Of a stretch of 64,000 nt of DNA, positions 18,765 to 50,022 are shown one piece after another (the first letter of the stretch is position 1; every line of letters starts with the position of its first letter). The notes beneath the pieces were generated by a model. That model did no database searches. It was given only the letters and a program-made list of their open reading frames with translations, and was not told where the DNA came from. The stretch comes from a virus. Where the stretch lies: the IMG/VR virus record IMGVR_UViG_3300035099_000047, positions 1 to 64,000 of that record; one strand, given 5' to 3'. The translations under genes were made by a program, and so were the position numbers.

Positions 18765-18960
18765 TGTGACATTCCCCACACCTAAAGGTGGAGGCTTCTG
18801 ACGGACGCTTGTCCTTGCTTGCTCCATGAGGGGGCAAGTAGCGGGGCTACGTTATCCGGCATGGGTGTGTCCCACCCAGCTCGACGCAAGATGTTCAGCG
18901 CCGCGTTGTGATCACGGTCGAGCGACAGACCACAGGCGCAGGTGACCCAACGGGTCGAAA
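18765..18960 (-). ncRNA. Possible omega (right-end guide) RNA of the TnpB element
   Basis: In this family a guide RNA is made from the 3' end of tnpB through the right-end hairpin and carries a guide copied from flanking DNA. The sequence here has the required hairpin directly after tnpB. Position and the family rule are the only support; ends are not determined. Confidence 0.3.
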
Positions 18961-19957
18961 GGTCAAAGTTTGGGAACGCTGTTCCACACTTAGAACAACA
19001 CTTGGACGTATAGGCGGGGTCTACATAGGCGACTTCACGACCAGCGCTTTCAGCCTTGTACGTGAGGTACTGCCGAAATGCAGACCAGCCGCTGTCCAGG
19101 ATGCTCTTGCTCAGGTGATGATTGCAAACCATGTTGCGTACATGCAAGTCTTCCAGTGCAATACGGTCATATCGGCGAATCAAGTCGGTGCTCAGTTTGT
19201 GCAGAAAGTCTGCACGCTGCGCCGCAACATGTGACTGATGGCGCTGAACGGCAAGCAGCACCCGGCGACGGTTGTTGCTACCGCGATGGGCGCGGGCAAG
19301 TTTGCGTTGCAGGCGGCGCAATTCCCGCTGCCCGGCACGATAGAAGGCCGGATGCGCAATCTTTGCTCCATCACTGATAGTTAGCAAGGCGGAAATGCCT
19401 ACGTCAATCCCAGCGATCTTGCCTGTGGGAGGCAGCGGTTTGCCTTCTGGCACTTCACAGGCAAAACAGGCATACCACCATCCCGCTTTGCGCAGGATGC
19501 GAACCGTCTTGACCGTTCCCTCAAGTGGGCGATGCCAGCGTACACGCATCCGCCCAATGCCATACAGCTTCAGTCGCCGCCCATCGAGTTTTGCACCATT
19601 CCCGAATTGCTTGAACAGAAAGCTGTTGAATTTGTTGTGACCTTTGAATCGTGGAAAGCCGGGCTTCTCTCCAGCTTTTACACGGCGAAAAAACGCCTGA
19701 AATGCAAGGTCAACCTGGTCAATGACGCTCTGTGCCGTTTGGCTGAACATCCGTTTGCCACAGAGGAAAGTCTTCCGGTAGTGTTTGGCAAGTTCGTAGA
19801 GTTCCGATCTGCTAACGCTGATCCTTTCCAGCTTATAAGCATACTTGCGCTCTGCCAGCGCCATGTTGTACAATCCTTGGCAGGCTTCCAGTATGCGACA
19901 CAAGTTTTTCTCTTGCGAGCGCGAAGGGTAGAGGCGATAGCGGTAAGTTCGCAGCAT
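18782..19957 (-). CDS. tnpB: TnpB RNA-guided nuclease (IS605 type)
   Basis: A 391-residue TnpB, the presumed ancestor of Cas12. It starts MLRTYRYRLYPSRSQEKNL (OrfB-type N-terminus). The RuvC site appears complete: GIDVGISALLTISDG (D), IALEDLHVRNM (E) and SLDRDHNAALNIL (D). The zinc ribbon CSKCG...CACG is intact. It should cut DNA next to a short target motif using the element's own right-end RNA. All catalytic residues visible suggests recent arrival and an active protein. Confidence 0.93.
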   Translation of the reverse strand: MLRTYRYRLYPSRSQEKNLCRILEACQGLYNMALAERKYAYKLERISVSRSELYELAKHYRKTFLCGKRMFSQTAQSVIDQVDLAFQAFFRRVKAGEKPGFPRFKGHNKFNSFLFKQFGNGAKLDGRRLKLYGIGRMRVRWHRPLEGTVKTVRILRKAGWWYACFACEVPEGKPLPPTGKIAGIDVGISALLTISDGAKIAHPAFYRAGQRELRRLQRKLARAHRGSNNRRRVLLAVQRHQSHVAAQRADFLHKLSTDLIRRYDRIALEDLHVRNMVCNHHLSKSILDSGWSAFRQYLTYKAESAGREVAYVDPAYTSKCCSKCGTAFPNFDLSTRWVTCACGLSLDRDHNAALNILRRAGWDTPMPDNVAPLLAPSWSKQGQASVRSLHL

Positions 19958-22691: not shown

Positions 22692-23846
22692 TTAGGCCAG
22701 CATCAGGGGAGTATCTTCCAAGGCCCGCAGAAACACTCCGCGAGCGCCGTTTATGTCCCGGTCCATCGAGACACCATCCGAACCACGCACACGATATCGG
22801 CTGCCCAAATTCAGGATGATTTCTCCCGACCATGAGCAAGTCTTGGACGTGTACGCTTCGTCCTGAATCAGAACGGTTTTCTGTTCTTGATCGGCCTTGG
22901 CAACCAATCTCAAACGGAAACGAGAATGGGCCAAGCCGAGCATGGCGCGAACGGACTTGTTGCGCAACTTGCGACTCGTTCGACTGGCCATGCGTCCCGC
23001 CGCGAATGGCGGGATGATGATGGTGTCGAATTCATCAAGCAAGAATCGAATCGTCTTCCAATGTAACTCGTCAATCAAGTTGCTGATCTTGCGCCGCATC
23101 CGTCCAATAGCTAAAGTCAAACGACGTTTCGATCGCTTGTCTCCCTTGGCGCGACGTGAAATCAGCCGATCAAGGTGAACGAGAAGACGGACGATTCGTT
23201 GTTGTGCTTGCTCTCCGATCTTGCCGTGAGAATCAAGAGAAAACAGAGTCTGAAACGTTCGGACGCCGGGGTCCAGAGCTACCGTCCGGCCTTTATCAGC
23301 CTTTTGTTGGACGGTAACTCTGAACGGAACGGACAAGAACCAAGCCCCATTGTCCCAGACGAGTCGGGAATCCCGATGCTGCTGGGGAAGCGGTTCCGCC
23401 GCCTTGAGAACTCCGGCAATTCTCAAGTAAACGCCGATGGCGTTATCTTTTTGCTTCACTGCCGATGCGGGAATGAAGCACGATTGTTTCGGGTTTCGCC
23501 TGGAGCGAAAGCGCATCTTGAACGGCTCGCCAGTCTGCTTGGCTTTCTTCTTTTGAGCCGAGAATGCTTCGCACGCATCGCTTACGGCCACGCTCTTGAT
23601 CTGATACGGGACAGCACGCATCCAGTCCGGGCACGTCGCCAAAATCATCTTCTTGACAACAGTCCAATGCGGACGCGGCCCGTCAAGGCCGTTGATATAC
23701 TCGATGGTTTGGTTGTAGCACCAGCGGCTTGCGGCCAACCAACTGCGGAACCTATTCGCTTGTTCCGGTGTCGGATAGAGTCTGATCTTCCTTGATCTTG
23801 TCGCGGTATTTTCTGAGTCCGTGCATTCGCGCAGAGAAGACGGCAA
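22692..23846 (-). CDS. tnpB: TnpB (IS607 type) with degenerate zinc ribbon
   Basis: A TnpB-family protein of about 384 residues. The recognisable part starts RSRKIRLYPTPEQANRFRSW; no ATG is in a good place, and TTG 23846 is a guess. The open frame continues upstream through the whole of tnpA, but that part is not coding. RuvC-I VALDPGVRTFQTLF and RuvC-III SMDRDINGARGVF are clear. The middle motif reads TIIIPPFAAGRM with no Glu at the usual place, as I recall for IS607 TnpBs close to Fanzor proteins. The zinc ribbon keeps one Cys only (SKTCSWSGEI...RVRGSDG), so it is probably not folded around zinc. Confidence 0.8.
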   Translation of the reverse strand: MPSSLRECTDSENTATRSRKIRLYPTPEQANRFRSWLAASRWCYNQTIEYINGLDGPRPHWTVVKKMILATCPDWMRAVPYQIKSVAVSDACEAFSAQKKKAKQTGEPFKMRFRSRRNPKQSCFIPASAVKQKDNAIGVYLRIAGVLKAAEPLPQQHRDSRLVWDNGAWFLSVPFRVTVQQKADKGRTVALDPGVRTFQTLFSLDSHGKIGEQAQQRIVRLLVHLDRLISRRAKGDKRSKRRLTLAIGRMRRKISNLIDELHWKTIRFLLDEFDTIIIPPFAAGRMASRTSRKLRNKSVRAMLGLAHSRFRLRLVAKADQEQKTVLIQDEAYTSKTCSWSGEIILNLGSRYRVRGSDGVSMDRDINGARGVFLRALEDTPLMLA

Positions 23847-24294
23847 GGATGGCAAGCAAGTCTTGAGTGAGTTCGTCTGCTGGACTGCCTTTCGCAGACT
23901 TACCGAGAACCACGATTTTGCCACCGTTTCGCTCGACCACCCAACGGATGAGTTCGATTCCGAATCTGGCAAGCCGGTCGCTGTGGGCAACCACAATCGT
24001 AAGCTGTTCGCCGCGCAAGCTGCGTTCCAGTAAGGAGCGCAAACCTTTGCGTCTGAAGTTGAGTCCGCTGCCGATGTCGATGACGATTTCACTGCCTGGA
24101 TTGCGTTGTTTGAGCCATTCGACTTGCCGTTCAAGATCGTCTTTTTGTTTGTGGCTCGAAACTCTGGCGTAACAGACAATGGCTGATTTGACGCCGACCC
24201 AGGTATCAATGCCAAACAATTGCTGTCCAGTCGGAGTTCGTTTGCAAGGAATCTGTCCATGATCGGCATACTTTCTGAGTGTGTGTGGGTGCAA
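23752..24294 (-). CDS. tnpA: TnpA serine recombinase of IS607
   Basis: A 180-residue protein from TTG 24294. It starts with a MerR-like helix-turn-helix (HTLRKYADHGQIPCKRTP), then the resolvase core YARVSSHKQKDDLERQ with catalytic Ser, and the family motif VVAHSDRLARFG. The natural N-terminus appears longer: the frame reads YIPLRVAVDTTGLHPHTLRK right from the element edge, with no ATG, GTG or TTG before 24294. The true start may be an ATT or be supplied by the target site. It overlaps tnpB, as usual in IS607. Confidence 0.85.
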   Translation of the reverse strand: MHPHTLRKYADHGQIPCKRTPTGQQLFGIDTWVGVKSAIVCYARVSSHKQKDDLERQVEWLKQRNPGSEIVIDIGSGLNFRRKGLRSLLERSLRGEQLTIVVAHSDRLARFGIELIRWVVERNGGKIVVLGKSAKGSPADELTQDLLAILAVFSARMHGLRKYRDKIKEDQTLSDTGTSE

Positions 24295-24331
24295 ACCAGT
24301 GGTATCGACGGCAACCCTTAACGGAATGTAC

Positions 24332-27230: not shown

Positions 27231-28184
27231 TCATCGCCTGATCGCCTCATAACACATAGCATCCACCCCAGCCCGTCCACTATAAAACGAAGAGTCCTTG
27301 AAAATATCTGTCACAGTCCAAGCGTATTCCGCCGCATCACCCACGGTATTCAACATGACCTTGCGGGCATAGCCCAACACTCCCCGCCGGATGTCCTCAG
27401 GATCTTCATCCAACTTGTTCAAGCACGCTGCAACCTCTTTCCACTGAACTCCTTTTTTGAATATCAATCGGGCCAACTCAAGTGTAGCACTGCTACCCAT
27501 CCCCCGTGTTACAGCATTTAGCTGCTTTTCCTTGCCCTCTACGTGGATCGCGGCATTTAACAACACCAATGCTTTACGAGGGCTGCCTTCCGCACATTCC
27601 ACGATCTTGTCTGCCACGTCCTCATCCAAATCAAACCGTTCACGGGCTGAAATGTCTTTCAGCAGGGCCAACATTTCTTCGTTTTTGAGCAGCCGGAAAT
27701 GAATTTCGGTGAATCGGGTATGAAGTGGCTTGATGATCTTTTCAGGTTCCGTGGTAGTCAAAATGAAATAGACATGATCTGGTGTAAACTCAGTCATATC
27801 CAACAGTGCATTTTGGCCATCGCTTGTTTCCTTGTGAAACTCATCAAGTAACCATATCCGCTTCCACCCTTCCTCTATTGGGCCACCCATAGGCACCATG
27901 CCCATACTATCACCAATGTCCCGTATAATGTCCACCCCCCGACCGTCGTTAGCGATATTGATGGCCTGCCAATCCATATCATGACACTTCAGCCTGTTTT
28001 TAAGTATAAGCGCCACTGTTGTCTTTCCAGTTCCACTTGGGCCAGAAAACATTAGTGAGTGAGGCACCTTGCCTTGGCGGCCCATTTCCTTCAGCGCCTC
28101 CACCGCGTCCTCCTGACCATACAGCTCACTGAACTTAGTCGGGCGGTATTTTTTGTACAACTCCATTTCACCGTCGTTGCTCAT
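27231..28184 (-). CDS. Clamp-loader ATPase (DnaX/gp44-like)
   Basis: A 317-residue AAA+ protein. An N-terminal YRPTKFSELYGQEDAV box, Walker A SGPSGTGKTT, Walker B IWLLDEFHKE (DE-H) and sensor 1 YFILTTTEPE are as in clamp loaders. SPRKALVLLN is the sensor 2 Arg region. It opens and loads the sliding clamp encoded at 31.4 kb. Its ATG overlaps the polymerase stop. Confidence 0.9.
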   Translation of the reverse strand: MSNDGEMELYKKYRPTKFSELYGQEDAVEALKEMGRQGKVPHSLMFSGPSGTGKTTVALILKNRLKCHDMDWQAINIANDGRGVDIIRDIGDSMGMVPMGGPIEEGWKRIWLLDEFHKETSDGQNALLDMTEFTPDHVYFILTTTEPEKIIKPLHTRFTEIHFRLLKNEEMLALLKDISARERFDLDEDVADKIVECAEGSPRKALVLLNAAIHVEGKEKQLNAVTRGMGSSATLELARLIFKKGVQWKEVAACLNKLDEDPEDIRRGVLGYARKVMLNTVGDAAEYAWTVTDIFKDSSFYSGRAGVDAMCYEAIRR

Positions 28185-29560
28185 ACCACTCGCCTTTTGT
28201 GAAACCAATTATCTTCACACACATCAACTTCCACATCAAACGGGACTATTGCCCATTGAAAATGCTCTCTCACATCCCGGGTCATTACCTGAATGATTTT
28301 GGCTACGTAGTCATCCAACTCACTACGGTGCACATCGCCTGTTATACTATCATGAGTTTCACATATAATCCGACTTTTCATACGGTTTTTGATAATCCAT
28401 TTTACCATCTGAATCATGTCCCAAAGCACACAATGATAAGCCGGACCTTGCACCCCATAGTTTGCCAACTGGTTTACACTGTACACACCCGTACAGCGAA
28501 ATCCTGTCATCATATCAAAATATCCCTTGCATTGGTAATCCTGTATGGCCTCCTGCAACCGCTTGTCCCATTCTGGAAACCGACTGTGAAACCGTTCGTC
28601 CACCTGTTGAATATGCCATTCAAACGTACCCTTAACTGGCTTCTCCCCCCGTTCACATCTACCCAACCGCTTAATGCCTTTAGAAGCCAGATGTTCTCTC
28701 AACGGTACCCCATCCTTAGTCTCCAACCCTTCCAATTGGATGGCCTCCCACAAGTTGCGAGAAGTATTGCGATAGTAGGAACCATAAAATGTGGGAAACA
28801 CAAACTTGTTCTTGGCCTGATCCCTAACTTTTTTAGGTACTTCGTCCAACATGTAACATTCAGCACCCATATCACGGTGTATGTCCTTCGTAGAATCACT
28901 GGCATATTCAATTAGCCTCTTATCGCGCCATCTGCAAGCCCCGCATCTAAATTCATGTGCACGCATATCCGCTTCTACCAACACGTGCCCCTCCGTTGGG
29001 ATATACAGTTGTCTCAACTTGGCTGCGAACTCCGCATCCCTTCGGATTTGATTTTGAACATTTGGGTGATCCGCCGAGGACCGATAAGTGTCTACTGAGT
29101 GCTGGTTAAAGCTGGGATGAATGTACTCACCTACCAACTCCCGTTTGATACCAACCAAGTAATTATCCCGCAATTTGCTAAGCTTGCGCAACCTCAACAA
29201 GCATTTAGCAAACGGGTGATCAATGGTATTGAGAACCTTTTCATCCATCTGCACCCGCTTACCTTTCTCTGTGCGAGCCTTTATTTCTATACCAAGATCC
29301 TTGGTTACCACGGAGGCTAATTGTGGAACACTACCCAGATTTGATCGATCCCCATAGCGACGTTTCCACAATCTCCAAACATCCGAACTCTTCAATTCAG
29401 AACTGATGCGTTTGATTTCATCATCAGATTCTTCGAGAACCCGATTCAACCCCTCAACATTTATACGCATGCCCCACTCTTCCACACGACTGAATGCCAT
29501 TGCCCCCTCATGCAACAACTGGTAGGCATCTTCGCTATTGGCATACACCGTCGGGCTCAT
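28181..29560 (-). CDS. DNA polymerase I-type polymerase domain
   Basis: A 459-residue family A polymerase domain without its own exonuclease. Motif A VLVEADMRAHEFRCG (Asp plus E/R), motif B RDQAKNKFVFPTFYGSYY (R...K...YG) and motif C ICETHDSITGDV (HDS rather than HDE) are visible. Start taken at MSPTVYANSEDAYQLL. The proofreading domain is in a separate gene upstream (29977-31191), fused to a glycosylase. The replicative polymerase is thus split in two polypeptides. Confidence 0.9.
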   Translation of the reverse strand: MSPTVYANSEDAYQLLHEGAMAFSRVEEWGMRINVEGLNRVLEESDDEIKRISSELKSSDVWRLWKRRYGDRSNLGSVPQLASVVTKDLGIEIKARTEKGKRVQMDEKVLNTIDHPFAKCLLRLRKLSKLRDNYLVGIKRELVGEYIHPSFNQHSVDTYRSSADHPNVQNQIRRDAEFAAKLRQLYIPTEGHVLVEADMRAHEFRCGACRWRDKRLIEYASDSTKDIHRDMGAECYMLDEVPKKVRDQAKNKFVFPTFYGSYYRNTSRNLWEAIQLEGLETKDGVPLREHLASKGIKRLGRCERGEKPVKGTFEWHIQQVDERFHSRFPEWDKRLQEAIQDYQCKGYFDMMTGFRCTGVYSVNQLANYGVQGPAYHCVLWDMIQMVKWIIKNRMKSRIICETHDSITGDVHRSELDDYVAKIIQVMTRDVREHFQWAIVPFDVEVDVCEDNWFHKRRVV

Positions 29561-29619
29561 CCAAACGATTCCACATTTTTGGGAGCACAATCCATTAACA
29601 ACTTACAACCATATGCATG

Positions 29620-29692
29620 TGGGTCTATCAGGAATCGGACCTGAGACCTGGTGTTTATAAGACACCTGCTCTAACCACTGAGCTATAGACCC
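29620..29692 (-). tRNA. tRNA-Ile (anticodon UAU)
   Basis: Cloverleaf read on the minus strand: acceptor GGGTCTA/TAGACCC, D arm GCTCAGTGGTTAGAGC, anticodon stem GGTGT/ACACC with loop CTTATAA, and T arm TCAGG-TCCGATT-CCTGA. Anticodon UAU reads the codon AUA. The discriminator is A; CCA is not encoded. It sits between the polymerase and the acidic protein gene and probably tops up a rare host tRNA. Confidence 0.93.
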
Positions 29693-29716: not shown

Positions 29717-29980
29717 TCAGTCCTCATCTTCATCTTCCCAGCCATCCTCATCATCTTCCCAATCTTCATCTTCATCTTCCCAATCTTCATCTTCCCAGTC
29801 CTCCTCGTCCTCCCAGTCCTCCTCATCATCCTCCCAATCCTCTTCGTCCTCCCAGTCCTCTTCGTCCTCCCAGTCCTCCTCATCATCCTCCCAATCTTCA
29901 TCATCATCTTCCCACCCTTCCCAATCCTCATCATCCTCATTCAAGCCGCCCGGATACCCATTTTTTGAAAACAAACTCAT
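29717..29980 (-). CDS. Extremely acidic D/E/W repeat protein (87 aa)
   Basis: Starts MSLFSKNGYPGGLN; from residue 15 to the end it contains only Asp, Glu, Trp and two Gly. The repeating theme is (D/E)-D-W-E-D-(D/E), with 11 Trp spaced about 5-8 residues apart. It overlaps the exonuclease/UDG gene (ATGA), so it is made with the polymerase machinery. Charge density suggests a DNA-mimic or partner-binding tail protein, for example toward SSB, polymerase or a host nuclease. That is inference; no family known to me. Confidence 0.7.
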   Translation of the reverse strand: MSLFSKNGYPGGLNEDDEDWEGWEDDDEDWEDDEEDWEDEEDWEDEEDWEDDEEDWEDEEDWEDEDWEDEDEDWEDDEDGWEDEDED

Positions 29981-31191
29981 GACATCATCTCCTTTTTCAA
30001 CTTCAACTGCTTGTCGACACAAAACCATTCCATAACAGCATCCATCCCGTTGTAAATTAACAGATCCCTCAGATCTAATTCATTGATCCGATTGTTTTCA
30101 TTGCCCCCCTTCCTATCAGACTTCAAGTAGGGGCTTACCAGCTTATGCCAAGCTGGCTGCCCCCAAAGGACAAACCCGTTGAACTTCGCACCCACCTTCG
30201 ACCGATTATCCAAGATGTGAGCCATTAACATCCCATCTGCACCCCAATTTCGCACTCCATGACCAAACTCAACTCGGGTCCAACGTTGTTCAAACTTGAT
30301 ATTCCACCCCCATTTTTCATGCTCACTCTGCAAAAATTCGCTCATCACCTGTTTTATTCTACTCATCCAAGGGAACGCAATGGTTTCTTCCCCGTCCCTG
30401 CAGATGGCACAACTAAAAATCCTAGCCCCTTCTCCATCCGGTTTCAACCGATTGGTTTCATAATCAAAAGTGAACACCCCACCCCGTCGAGTCATCCGTT
30501 GGATACGCTTTTCCGCTTCCTCCCCTTCATAAATGCATTCCACCTGAGATTGAAAATCAGGTGGACCATTAGGCCAAGGCTTACCCTCCAATTCAAACAC
30601 AGCTTTCAAGTGTTGATCAAACCAGAACTCCAACACGGGGTCGTCCTGCCGCAACAAGTAACTACTGTGCCAAGTAGGACATATCCAAGCATTGAGTTCT
30701 TGACTAGGTATCCGAAACCCTGCCCAGCGACTAATACCACCCAAACCTTCATCGTCCCACCATATCGAACCTATAAGACTTTTAACAGCCGCCCCACCTA
30801 ACAAGACTATGACGTCCGGTTTCAATTCCATCAGAGTCTTGTTAAGGCTGGGGCGGCAGGCTTCTATCTGCTCATCTGTCGTTTCATTTTCTGAAGGCCG
30901 GCATATAACCGCATTTGTTTTCCAACAGTCCTCGTCCAAATCAACGCCTATCTTACCCAAGTGCTTGCGCAATTTTTGACCTGCACGGCCTATTAACTGA
31001 ACACCTTTTTCATCTTCCGCTTCACCAGGAGATTCCGCCACCACCAACACCTTACGCTTACCCCAGCCAGTCCAACCCATACGGGGACTCTTACAAGTGC
31101 GATACAGCCCACACGATCCACAACGAGGGGCTGTGACCACATCTTCCAACTGCCCTAATTGCGAATCAGAAAAAAATCCTTCAGACCTCAC
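29977..31191 (-). CDS. Uracil-DNA glycosylase (family 4-like) fused to 3'-5' exonuclease
   Basis: A 404-residue two-domain protein. Residues 20-205 form the glycosylase: Fe-S cysteines CGSCGLYRTC, motif AESPGEAEDEKGVQLIG, CRP around residue 97, and TWHSSYLLRQ in place of the usual HPS loop. Residues 235-404 form a DnaQ/Pol I-type exonuclease: FTFDYETNRL (D-x-E), WNIKFEQ, and LLIYNGMDAVME (Y-x3-D). The exonuclease must proofread for the separate polymerase; the fused glycosylase would check for uracil at the fork. Confidence 0.85.
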   Translation of the reverse strand: MRSEGFFSDSQLGQLEDVVTAPRCGSCGLYRTCKSPRMGWTGWGKRKVLVVAESPGEAEDEKGVQLIGRAGQKLRKHLGKIGVDLDEDCWKTNAVICRPSENETTDEQIEACRPSLNKTLMELKPDVIVLLGGAAVKSLIGSIWWDDEGLGGISRWAGFRIPSQELNAWICPTWHSSYLLRQDDPVLEFWFDQHLKAVFELEGKPWPNGPPDFQSQVECIYEGEEAEKRIQRMTRRGGVFTFDYETNRLKPDGEGARIFSCAICRDGEETIAFPWMSRIKQVMSEFLQSEHEKWGWNIKFEQRWTRVEFGHGVRNWGADGMLMAHILDNRSKVGAKFNGFVLWGQPAWHKLVSPYLKSDRKGGNENNRINELDLRDLLIYNGMDAVMEWFCVDKQLKLKKEMMS

Positions 31192-47602: not shown

Positions 47603-47955
47603 TTGTCTAGTCTTGTCGGGTCAGGTCTGGTTTCGTCGAGTCGGGTCGCATCTCGCCTGGTCCGGTCCGGTCTAGTCACGTCCTATCATGTCCAATCCGG
47701 TCTTGCCGTGCCCTGGTCCAGCCTGGTTTGGTTGGGTTTTATTTGGTATAATCTTGTTGCACCCAGCCCTATCTAACCCAATTGTGTCGCGTTGCATCGG
47801 TCTGGTCTAGTCTTGTCTGATCCGGTCTCGTCCCGCCCTGTCTCGCCTGGTCAGGTCCAATCGTGTCATGTTCGATCTGGTTTGGTCTTGTTGGGTCAGG
47901 TCTTGTCAGGTCTAACCTTGTCCTGTCAAGTCTGGTCCAATCTAGTTGTGGGGTC
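47603..47955 (+). repeat. Pentamer array 1: degenerate NNGTC units
   Basis: About 70 units of five bases, consensus NNGTC on the plus strand (NNATC, NNGCC and NNGTT are the common variants). The first two bases vary freely. The middle (about 47700-47790) is more decayed and has phase slips. The last unit touches the stop of the 47954 gene. It fills the whole gap between two genes; the open frames read through it are by-products of the repeat. Confidence 0.9.
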
Positions 47956-48481
47956 AAGTATCCTTCATCAGCTCTAACAACTTGCTGGGCTCTATTTGAC
48001 GTAGCCTAGTCCGGCCATCTTGTGAAAGCAAACGCTGTGCCTTATTGTGAAAGCCGCCAGAACTCAGCAATGATTCCATACCCATTTGAGCCGTCCTGAT
48101 ATTCAGTTCCAGTCGTTCCTCTGGGCTCATTTCCGACCGATCAGTCCCAACTGCTATGCGCATCATCCTCTTGGAAAACTTGTGGATGCGCTTGGAACCT
48201 CGATTCAATACCTTTAGTCGGCCCTTTGAATCTAAACACACCCAAGCTTTCTCCTCGGGAAACCACCTCCACGTCACGTTGTAATTGACTTCGGTGTAGT
48301 AAATCGCGTAAGTTACATTGCGGTATCCCGGAGATTTGGAATCGCAGGGCCTACCTACAATTTTGTTCATTTCCTCCAGGGGAATTTTGTCCCCTGGTTT
48401 TCCTTTGCACATGTGTTGAACAGCTGCAGCAGTGTAACTGCTAAGCTCATACATGCGCCTGCCGTCTCCCACGTTACTCAT
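47954..48481 (-). CDS. Hypothetical protein flanked by pentamer arrays (175 aa)
   Basis: MSNVGDGRRMYELSSYTAAA, then VTYAIYYTEVNYNVTWRWFP and a basic, helical second half (KRIHKFSKRMMRIAVGTD). It could be DNA- or RNA-binding; no domain recognised. Arrays 1 and 2 lie directly on both sides, making it a candidate for a protein that acts on or maintains them. That is only a positional guess. Confidence 0.55.
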   Translation of the reverse strand: MSNVGDGRRMYELSSYTAAAVQHMCKGKPGDKIPLEEMNKIVGRPCDSKSPGYRNVTYAIYYTEVNYNVTWRWFPEEKAWVCLDSKGRLKVLNRGSKRIHKFSKRMMRIAVGTDRSEMSPEERLELNIRTAQMGMESLLSSGGFHNKAQRLLSQDGRTRLRQIEPSKLLELMKDT

Positions 48482-48502: not shown

Positions 48503-49062
48503 AAGTCTCGTCTTGTCTTGTTGTGTCGCGTTCAGTTTTGTCTAGTCTAGTCGGGTCAGGTCACATCGGGTTGGGTCTAGTCTGGTCGGGCCCTGTCATG
48601 CCTTGTCTGGTGTGCTTTGATCGCACCGTGCCCCGTTTAATCTAACCGTGTTGTGCTTGATTAGACCTTGCTTTGTCCAGTCAGGTCATATTGCGTCAAG
48701 TCGGGTCTGGTCCAGTCTCGTCAAGCCTTGTCAGGTCCGGTCTCGTCCAGTCATGTCTAGTCACGTCATGTCCAGTCCAATCCTGTCACGTCATGTCCCG
48801 TCTTGTCATGTCTAGTCAAGTCCGGTCCAGTCGAGTCCTGCCCCGTCCTGTCTAGTCACGTCATGTCCAGTCCAGTCTCGCCCAGTCAGGTTTGGTCTGG
48901 TCCGGCATCGTCCAGCTATATCTAGTCCTGTCTTGTCGCGTCACGTCCAGTCCCGTCACGTCCAGTCGCGTCCAGTCTAGTCCTGTCCCGTCTCGCCTCG
49001 CCTAGTCCAGTCATGTCTCGTCATGTCCTGTCAAGCCGTGTCCTGTCAAGCCTTGTCCTGTC
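48503..49062 (+). repeat. Pentamer array 2: 112 NNGTC units in perfect phase
   Basis: 560 bases from AAGTC (48503) to CTGTC (49062), a whole number of 5-base steps. Almost every unit ends GTC; most deviations are transitions (G to A, T to C, C to T). The first two bases of each unit look unconstrained. It fills the gap between genes 47954 and 49077. Confidence 0.93.
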
Positions 49063-49076
49063 ATGACATACTGAGT

Positions 49077-49655
49077 TCATTCGTCGGTTTGGAAGTCCAA
49101 CTTATCAATCCGGAACCGTCCATTGATACCACCGTTTTCCACCCTCATGGCGCCCCAACCAATGAACTGACCAACACACCGCAGATGATCGTGGATCTGA
49201 TCCGGGGTGATTTTGCCGTCAAAGACGTCAAAATCTCCGTGGGCCACCCATTGATGGAACGTTGGGAAAATGCGAGGTACCCGCTTGGTACCTCCATGCT
49301 TACCGTCGGATGGTACCGGAAGGGGGATGGGATCCACGTCTTCGACCGTCATAGGAGATCCATCAGGTTTAAACAATAACACTGATGAACCAGGTGAAAT
49401 ACCCTTGACAAATCGGCTGGCAAAAGTGGTACGACCCTCCACCTTGCGCCCCAACCATTTGGCTGCAGACAGTAGAGAGTTGGTAACGCAGAAGGAATTC
49501 AGGTAACATTGACCTTCTGGGTTGACCCAAAGTTTCTTCTTCCAAATCCTTTCCTCGAACTGTTCATAAGTCTCCCCGTCCTGCTTTTTGTCCAGCAGAT
49601 ACCTGGAAACCATGAGATCAGCCATCCCGATCACTTGAAAAGTAACCTTCAACAT
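49077..49655 (-). CDS. Conserved-type phage protein flanked by pentamer arrays (192 aa)
   Basis: MLKVTFQVIGMADLMVSRYL, later VPSDGKHGGTKRVPRIFPTF then QWVAHGDFDVFD, and QFIGWGAMRVENGGINGRFR. This order (v.GhaplM..ry, PSDG..GG.kRv...fP, fiGwG..R...gG..GRF) is one I recall from a widespread phage protein of unknown function, usually near replication genes. Sits between arrays 2 and 3. Confidence 0.65.
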   Translation of the reverse strand: MLKVTFQVIGMADLMVSRYLLDKKQDGETYEQFEERIWKKKLWVNPEGQCYLNSFCVTNSLLSAAKWLGRKVEGRTTFASRFVKGISPGSSVLLFKPDGSPMTVEDVDPIPLPVPSDGKHGGTKRVPRIFPTFHQWVAHGDFDVFDGKITPDQIHDHLRCVGQFIGWGAMRVENGGINGRFRIDKLDFQTDE

Positions 49656-49765: not shown

Positions 49766-50010
49766 TTGTCTGGTCTAGTTTGGTCTAGTCATATCTCGTC
49801 AGGTCTAGTCTGTTCCCGTCCGGTCCTACCGCGTCTTGTCGGGTCACATCTAGTCACGTCCGATTCCGTCGTGTCTTGTCGGGTCACATCTAGTCACGTC
49901 CGGTCAGGCTTGGTCAGATCATGTCTCGTCATGTCAGGTCGGGCCCAGTCTCGTCAGGTCTAGTCTGGTTTGGTTCGGTCCCGTCTTGTCCCGTCCTGTC
50001 AGATCGGGTC
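49766..50010 (+). repeat. Pentamer array 3: 49 NNGTC units with internal duplication
   Basis: 245 bases, exactly 49 steps from TTGTC to GGGTC. A 30-base segment (49833-49862) is repeated identically 40 bases later (49873-49902), i.e. shifted by eight units. It lies between the 49077 gene and the primase. Confidence 0.92.
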
Positions 50011-50022
50011 AAGCTAATTACT

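Follow-up and report, generated by a model that had tools for sequence, protein, structure and literature searches.

The pentamer arrays analysed here lie in a locus that is, with high probability, a phage-encoded VIPR system, in a variant with a GAC/NN code and very long arrays. The window, i.e. the whole stretch of DNA under analysis, comprises 64,000 nucleotides (positions 1 to 64,000 of the 172-kb IMG/VR record IMGVR_UViG_3300035099_000047). The assignment is based on the anatomy of the module, the homology of both of its proteins to a pair in Escherichia phage SUSP1, the RAMP fold of one of them, the association of that protein family with arrays, and the exchange of the two variable letters (NN) with GAC conserved. 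VIPR systems, described in April 2026, combine phage RAMP proteins with guide RNAs that repress competitors; these guides (vrRNAs) consist of alternating GGY and NN and are read with a one-base skip (PMC13142463). SUSP1 carries a published system, for which the gapped DNA target (NNxNNx...) was demonstrated experimentally, and the experiments given in the text were performed mainly on two GGY/NN systems (PMC13142463). The text describes SUSP1-type RNAs as having 9-16 repeats and, at the 3' end, a structured tail that does not vary; it also states that array architecture differs among VIPR types, mentions staggered overlapping arrays, and gives GGY/NN "or a related consensus" for all types (PMC13142463).

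On the minus strand the locus reads array 3, vipr, array 2, vap1, array 1, and it adjoins primase and helicase genes. The earlier note had reported three arrays in one region, and these were located at about 47605-47949, 48505-49064 and 49768-50012, the sister arrays thus lying within 2.5 kb. Array 2 (48505..49064, minus strand) fills the gap between vipr and vap1. It had been described as 112 consecutive units ending in GTC on the plus strand; the 112 in-phase units were recovered (GAC-NN on the transcript strand), but only 79 of them are exactly GTC (about 70%; 500 shuffles gave at most 12), and about 30% deviate, mostly by single transitions (22 of the 24 units with a single difference). 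The pattern RYY on the plus strand, equivalent to RRY on the gene strand, is kept in 109 of the 112 units. As claimed, no insertion or deletion breaks the five-base phase of this array. One stretch of 14 consecutive perfect units begins at 48925. The autocorrelation and information content analysis proposed in the earlier note gave a clear excess at period 5 (0.57-0.60 at lags 5, 10, 15 and so on, against 0.18-0.21 at other lags), with 1.5, 1.3 and 1.3 bits at three positions and 0.06 and 0.03 bits at two near-random ones. The arrays are also, as had been stated, neither a microsatellite, for which the units are far too varied, nor a CRISPR array: periodicity is pentameric only, and direct repeats with unique spacers were not seen in them.

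Array 3 (49768..50012, minus strand) lies upstream of vipr and comprises 49 GAC-NN units on the transcript strand (NNGTC on the plus strand), exactly GTC in 36 and RYY in 48, with the 3' end GACCAGACAAG. Array 1, also on the minus strand, falls into three blocks, named here in transcript sense. The 5' block (47800..47949) has 30 units, 19 of them exactly GTC and all 30 RYY; the middle block (47716..47799) is shifted in phase by one base, slipping near 47715 and back near 47799, and is strongly diverged (RYY in 15 of 16 units, GTC in 2); the 3' block (47605..47714) has 22 units, 15 exactly GTC and 22 of 22 RYY, and ends in GACTAGACAAG. Within the arrays, tandem-repeat rows with periods of 15-30 bases and 61-96% matches were detected, along with short internal duplications (NN runs of 5-6 units). 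No period-5 array beyond these three was found in the rest of the window, and the remainder of the record lacks the exact five-fold GTC pattern. From the gene strand, homology and conserved 3' ends we infer that the units would be read in the direction GAC-NN.

Other features of the window were noted alongside. Two DNA polymerase frames (28181-29590 and 29977-31191) match phrog_17 in succession (positions 479-830 and 832-1234); the polymerase may be split, interrupted by an intervening element, or broken by a sequencing error. A tRNA gene (29620-29692) sits between these frames, and in the interval separating it from the second frame, 29718-29914 is occupied by CATCCTCATCTTCCCAG-like tandem repeats that are imperfect and measure about 18-21 bases. 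Two genes of a transposase family (phrog_506; 18782-19957 and 22692-24314) lie in the same phage region.

The vipr candidate (49077..49655, minus strand) encodes 192 aa with a RAMP fold and a glycine-rich loop at residues 162-181 (GQFIGWGAMRVENGGINGRF). It matches phrog_4652 (E 8.6e-5), to which the candidate Vipr of SUSP1 also belongs (E 8e-96), and a profile built from its relatives with SUSP1 left out matched that SUSP1 protein first of 109 ORFs (E 2.3e-14). The AlphaFold2 model (pLDDT 91.6) finds its nearest PDB folds among subunits of type III and type VII CRISPR effectors, and the predicted fold is that of a Cas7-type RAMP. Cas7-type proteins form a filament that coats RNA, with pairing disrupted at regular intervals. 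The window protein shares the RAMP fold and the glycine-rich loop with the Cas7 subunits of these effectors (Csm3, Cmr, type VII Cas7), but sequence identity is only 8-16%; unlike type III and VII CRISPR loci, the window locus has no repeat/spacer array, and no further cas genes were recognised beside vipr. Searches of the window Vipr against named phages gave no match at E 0.01, and a search of the defence library returned nothing significant. The second gene, vap1-like (47954..48481, minus strand; 175 aa), provides the accessory vap gene adjoining vipr and is a conserved partner in many VIPR loci; the corresponding profile, again with SUSP1 left out, matched the adjacent SUSP1 ORF first of 109 (E 1.2e-7). 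Both genes are intact open frames.

In SUSP1 (KT454805) two genes lie between extended intergenic regions in which NNGGY arrays can be seen. We assign ORFs 28474-29061 and 28031-28471 as candidate vipr and vap1, respectively, from their size, position and arrays, the text of PMC13142463 giving no accession for them. Like the window, SUSP1 has a RAMP gene (about 195 aa) with an adjacent vap1, both homologous to the window proteins, and on either side lie pentamer arrays, on the gene strand, in which three bases are fixed and two vary; the window, too, has such arrays in the flanking intergenic DNA. In contrast, the fixed triplet is GGY in SUSP1 and GAC in the window, so that strict GGY is absent here; nearly all units are RRY, and the wording "related consensus" in the text of PMC13142463 would permit this. 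SUSP1-type arrays have 9-16 repeats and array 2 has 112 units, one window array lies between vipr and vap1, and, again unlike in SUSP1, no structured 3' tail was recognised. Gordonia phage MakoManhole (PQ184807, gene 78; VIPR by our assignment) likewise encodes a RAMP relative, and the next gene carries the annotation "DNA binding protein"; the pentamer arrays of this phage (GGC/CGG), however, differ from those of the window in being GGC-type and short.

The association of this protein family with arrays extends well beyond the window. When IMG/VR was scanned for seven GTC pentamers, degenerate arrays came to light in at least about 30 viral contigs; among the matches listed, many viral loci encode a relative of 49077-49655, and at least about 20 viral loci encode a relative of 47954-48481. 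A second set of 80 viral loci was gathered by Vipr alignment alone, without any array pattern; scanning these along the vipr strand showed degenerate period-5 arrays in 63, with GAC as the fixed triplet in 25, GGY (GGC/GGT) in 24, CGC in 8, GTT in 4 and other triplets in a few. A closely similar scan, which gave 190 arrays in 0.52 Mb of real loci, detected nothing across 1.56 Mb of shuffled ones and recognised three SUSP1 arrays, as GGT. Long arrays occur elsewhere too (a GAC array of 755 bases in L268), and some relatives have short arrays with constant 3' ends. Several loci show peculiar arrangements: very long arrays of CGC/NN upstream of vipr, 775 bases in L325 and 360 bases in L324; ten or more GAC arrays scattered through several kb among the other genes of a single phage (L034, 6978-12527), nearly all sharing a AAGACTTGATTT tail; and four pentamer arrays split by an exact 34-base element, AGGAAAAACAGCCTCCTTGTCTGAGTGATAAACAC, that has no Rfam match and resembles a repeat/spacer order at larger scale (L013, 7889-8457). 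In L098, L052, L078 and L025 the arrays are GTC/NN on the vipr strand, and in L098 and L078 hairpin-like sequences 3' of the array in vipr direction suggest transcription as GUC/NN.

The variable letters behave as expected for exchanged guides in two near-identical contigs (L271 and L272), judging from their alignment. The two agree fully over a 1430-base upstream stretch and at 98.8% over vipr and its flank; NN identity is near chance (0.27 in the upstream and 0.36 in the downstream array), and the GAC triplets and the last AAGAC unit are kept. NN pooled over all GAC arrays except those of the window are biased in their dinucleotides as natural DNA is (r 0.94, against about 0 after permutation), which would fit guides derived from targets, and mutation bias could contribute; in the window NN alone this association is not significant. 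No NN runs common to the window and its relatives were found beyond chance.

With a Cas7-like RAMP homologous to SUSP1 Vipr as partner, the array unit is most likely recognised as GAC in RNA, in which case the seemingly random pair of letters is the information. From the SUSP1 work we infer transcription, RNA binding, the one-base skip and repression for the window locus. The arrays would be transcribed into RNAs of alternating GAC and NN, and copies of Vipr would coat this RNA, each gripping a GAC. The exposed NN dinucleotides would jointly spell a gapped DNA target (NNxNNx...), and the Vipr complex, aided by Vap1, would repress transcription of a competing phage or satellite. The 112-unit array could yield guides by cutting, give overlapping guides, or serve as one long filament.

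Several results count against the VIPR reading. A target search with the one-base skip was run on the fetched sequence and with six IMG/VR patterns (five from the window, one from L271); no DNA target was found in the stretches scanned, and matches extend past the 8-unit core no more than expected by chance. Since each of the six patterns covers only one 8-unit stretch, this failure is weak evidence. No distinct folded 3' tail was significant at the window arrays (best z-score -1.95, array 1). To this we add the lack of a significant signature in the window NN, the units off GAC, the partial decay of array 1, and the length of array 2, several times that reported for SUSP1-type RNAs. In separate checks, one 101-nt array stretch folds with z -3.6, but self-complementarity of the arrays was rejected, in-phase complementary NN runs being no longer than in permuted arrays. 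Rfam gave nothing at the arrays, and no hammerhead reached the gathering score in the window or in seven related loci.

Part of this evidence would suit a VIPR locus in decay, which worked in an ancestor and whose arrays here are drifting relics: the deviating units of array 2, the phase slips and the block with GTC in 2 of 16 units in array 1, and the missing natural-DNA signature that the pooled relatives have. We consider this unlikely. Both frames are intact, the phase of array 2 is perfect across 560 bases, and the deviations from GAC comprise 44 transitions against 4 transversions, nearly all preserving RRY, which suggests constraint.

An array acting at the DNA level, with a protein binding GTC/GAC at each half helical turn, is very improbable. 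The regular five-base spacing and the neighbouring primase and helicase genes would agree with an origin, partition site, decoy or boundary. The partner gene, however, encodes a RAMP and not a known DNA-binding or partition protein, in relatives the arrays flank this RAMP gene, and a triplet that varies by lineage and NN exchanged between near-identical phages are unneeded for a DNA-binding site. The earlier suggestion that a protein reads every unit probably holds, but reading of GTC in duplex DNA is not supported by our data; nor, with a partner homologous to SUSP1 Vipr, are the proposed roles as origin, partition site, decoy, modification target or transcription boundary. Functionless slippage-driven expansion of a tandem repeat or an assembly artefact is scarcely credible despite the short internal duplications, given that the units are so varied, that throughout the family arrays are found with the same protein, that none appear in shuffled sequence, that GTC pentamer runs in cellular genomes are, by contrast, mostly exact low-entropy repeats among the matches listed, and that, in the comparison with related phages the earlier note had called for, like arrays adjoin the same gene in many independent contigs.

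Within the VIPR reading, we tentatively propose that Vipr reads the fixed triplet (GAC, GGY, CGC, GTT or another) as a code word specific to its lineage, that this word was switched repeatedly in evolution, and that the residue after GxG is a candidate determinant. The window Vipr belongs to a fully supported clade of 12 members, all 12 with GAC, and triplets are clustered on the Vipr tree (31 changes against 45 when shuffled), still with many changes. The column that covaries best with the triplet lies in the glycine-rich loop, at the residue after GxG (A169 in the window Vipr), which is Arg in 21 of 22 GGY Viprs and non-Arg in 27 of 31 GAC Viprs; with only two independent pairs on supported branches this covariation is suggestive only. 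If true, the proposal would make different VIPRs orthogonal and the 112-unit array a precursor of multiple or overlapping guides.

GAC and long arrays may already stand in the supplement of PMC13142463, because its text mentions a "related consensus" and staggered overlapping arrays. The window locus and its relatives reveal a fixed triplet GAC, CGC or GTT in many uncultivated phages, with arrays that can exceed 100 units. Near-identical phages that differ mainly in NN look like a case of guide exchange without known acquisition machinery. Triplet recognition by Vipr, the route from long array to guides, and the renewal of guides are now all testable.
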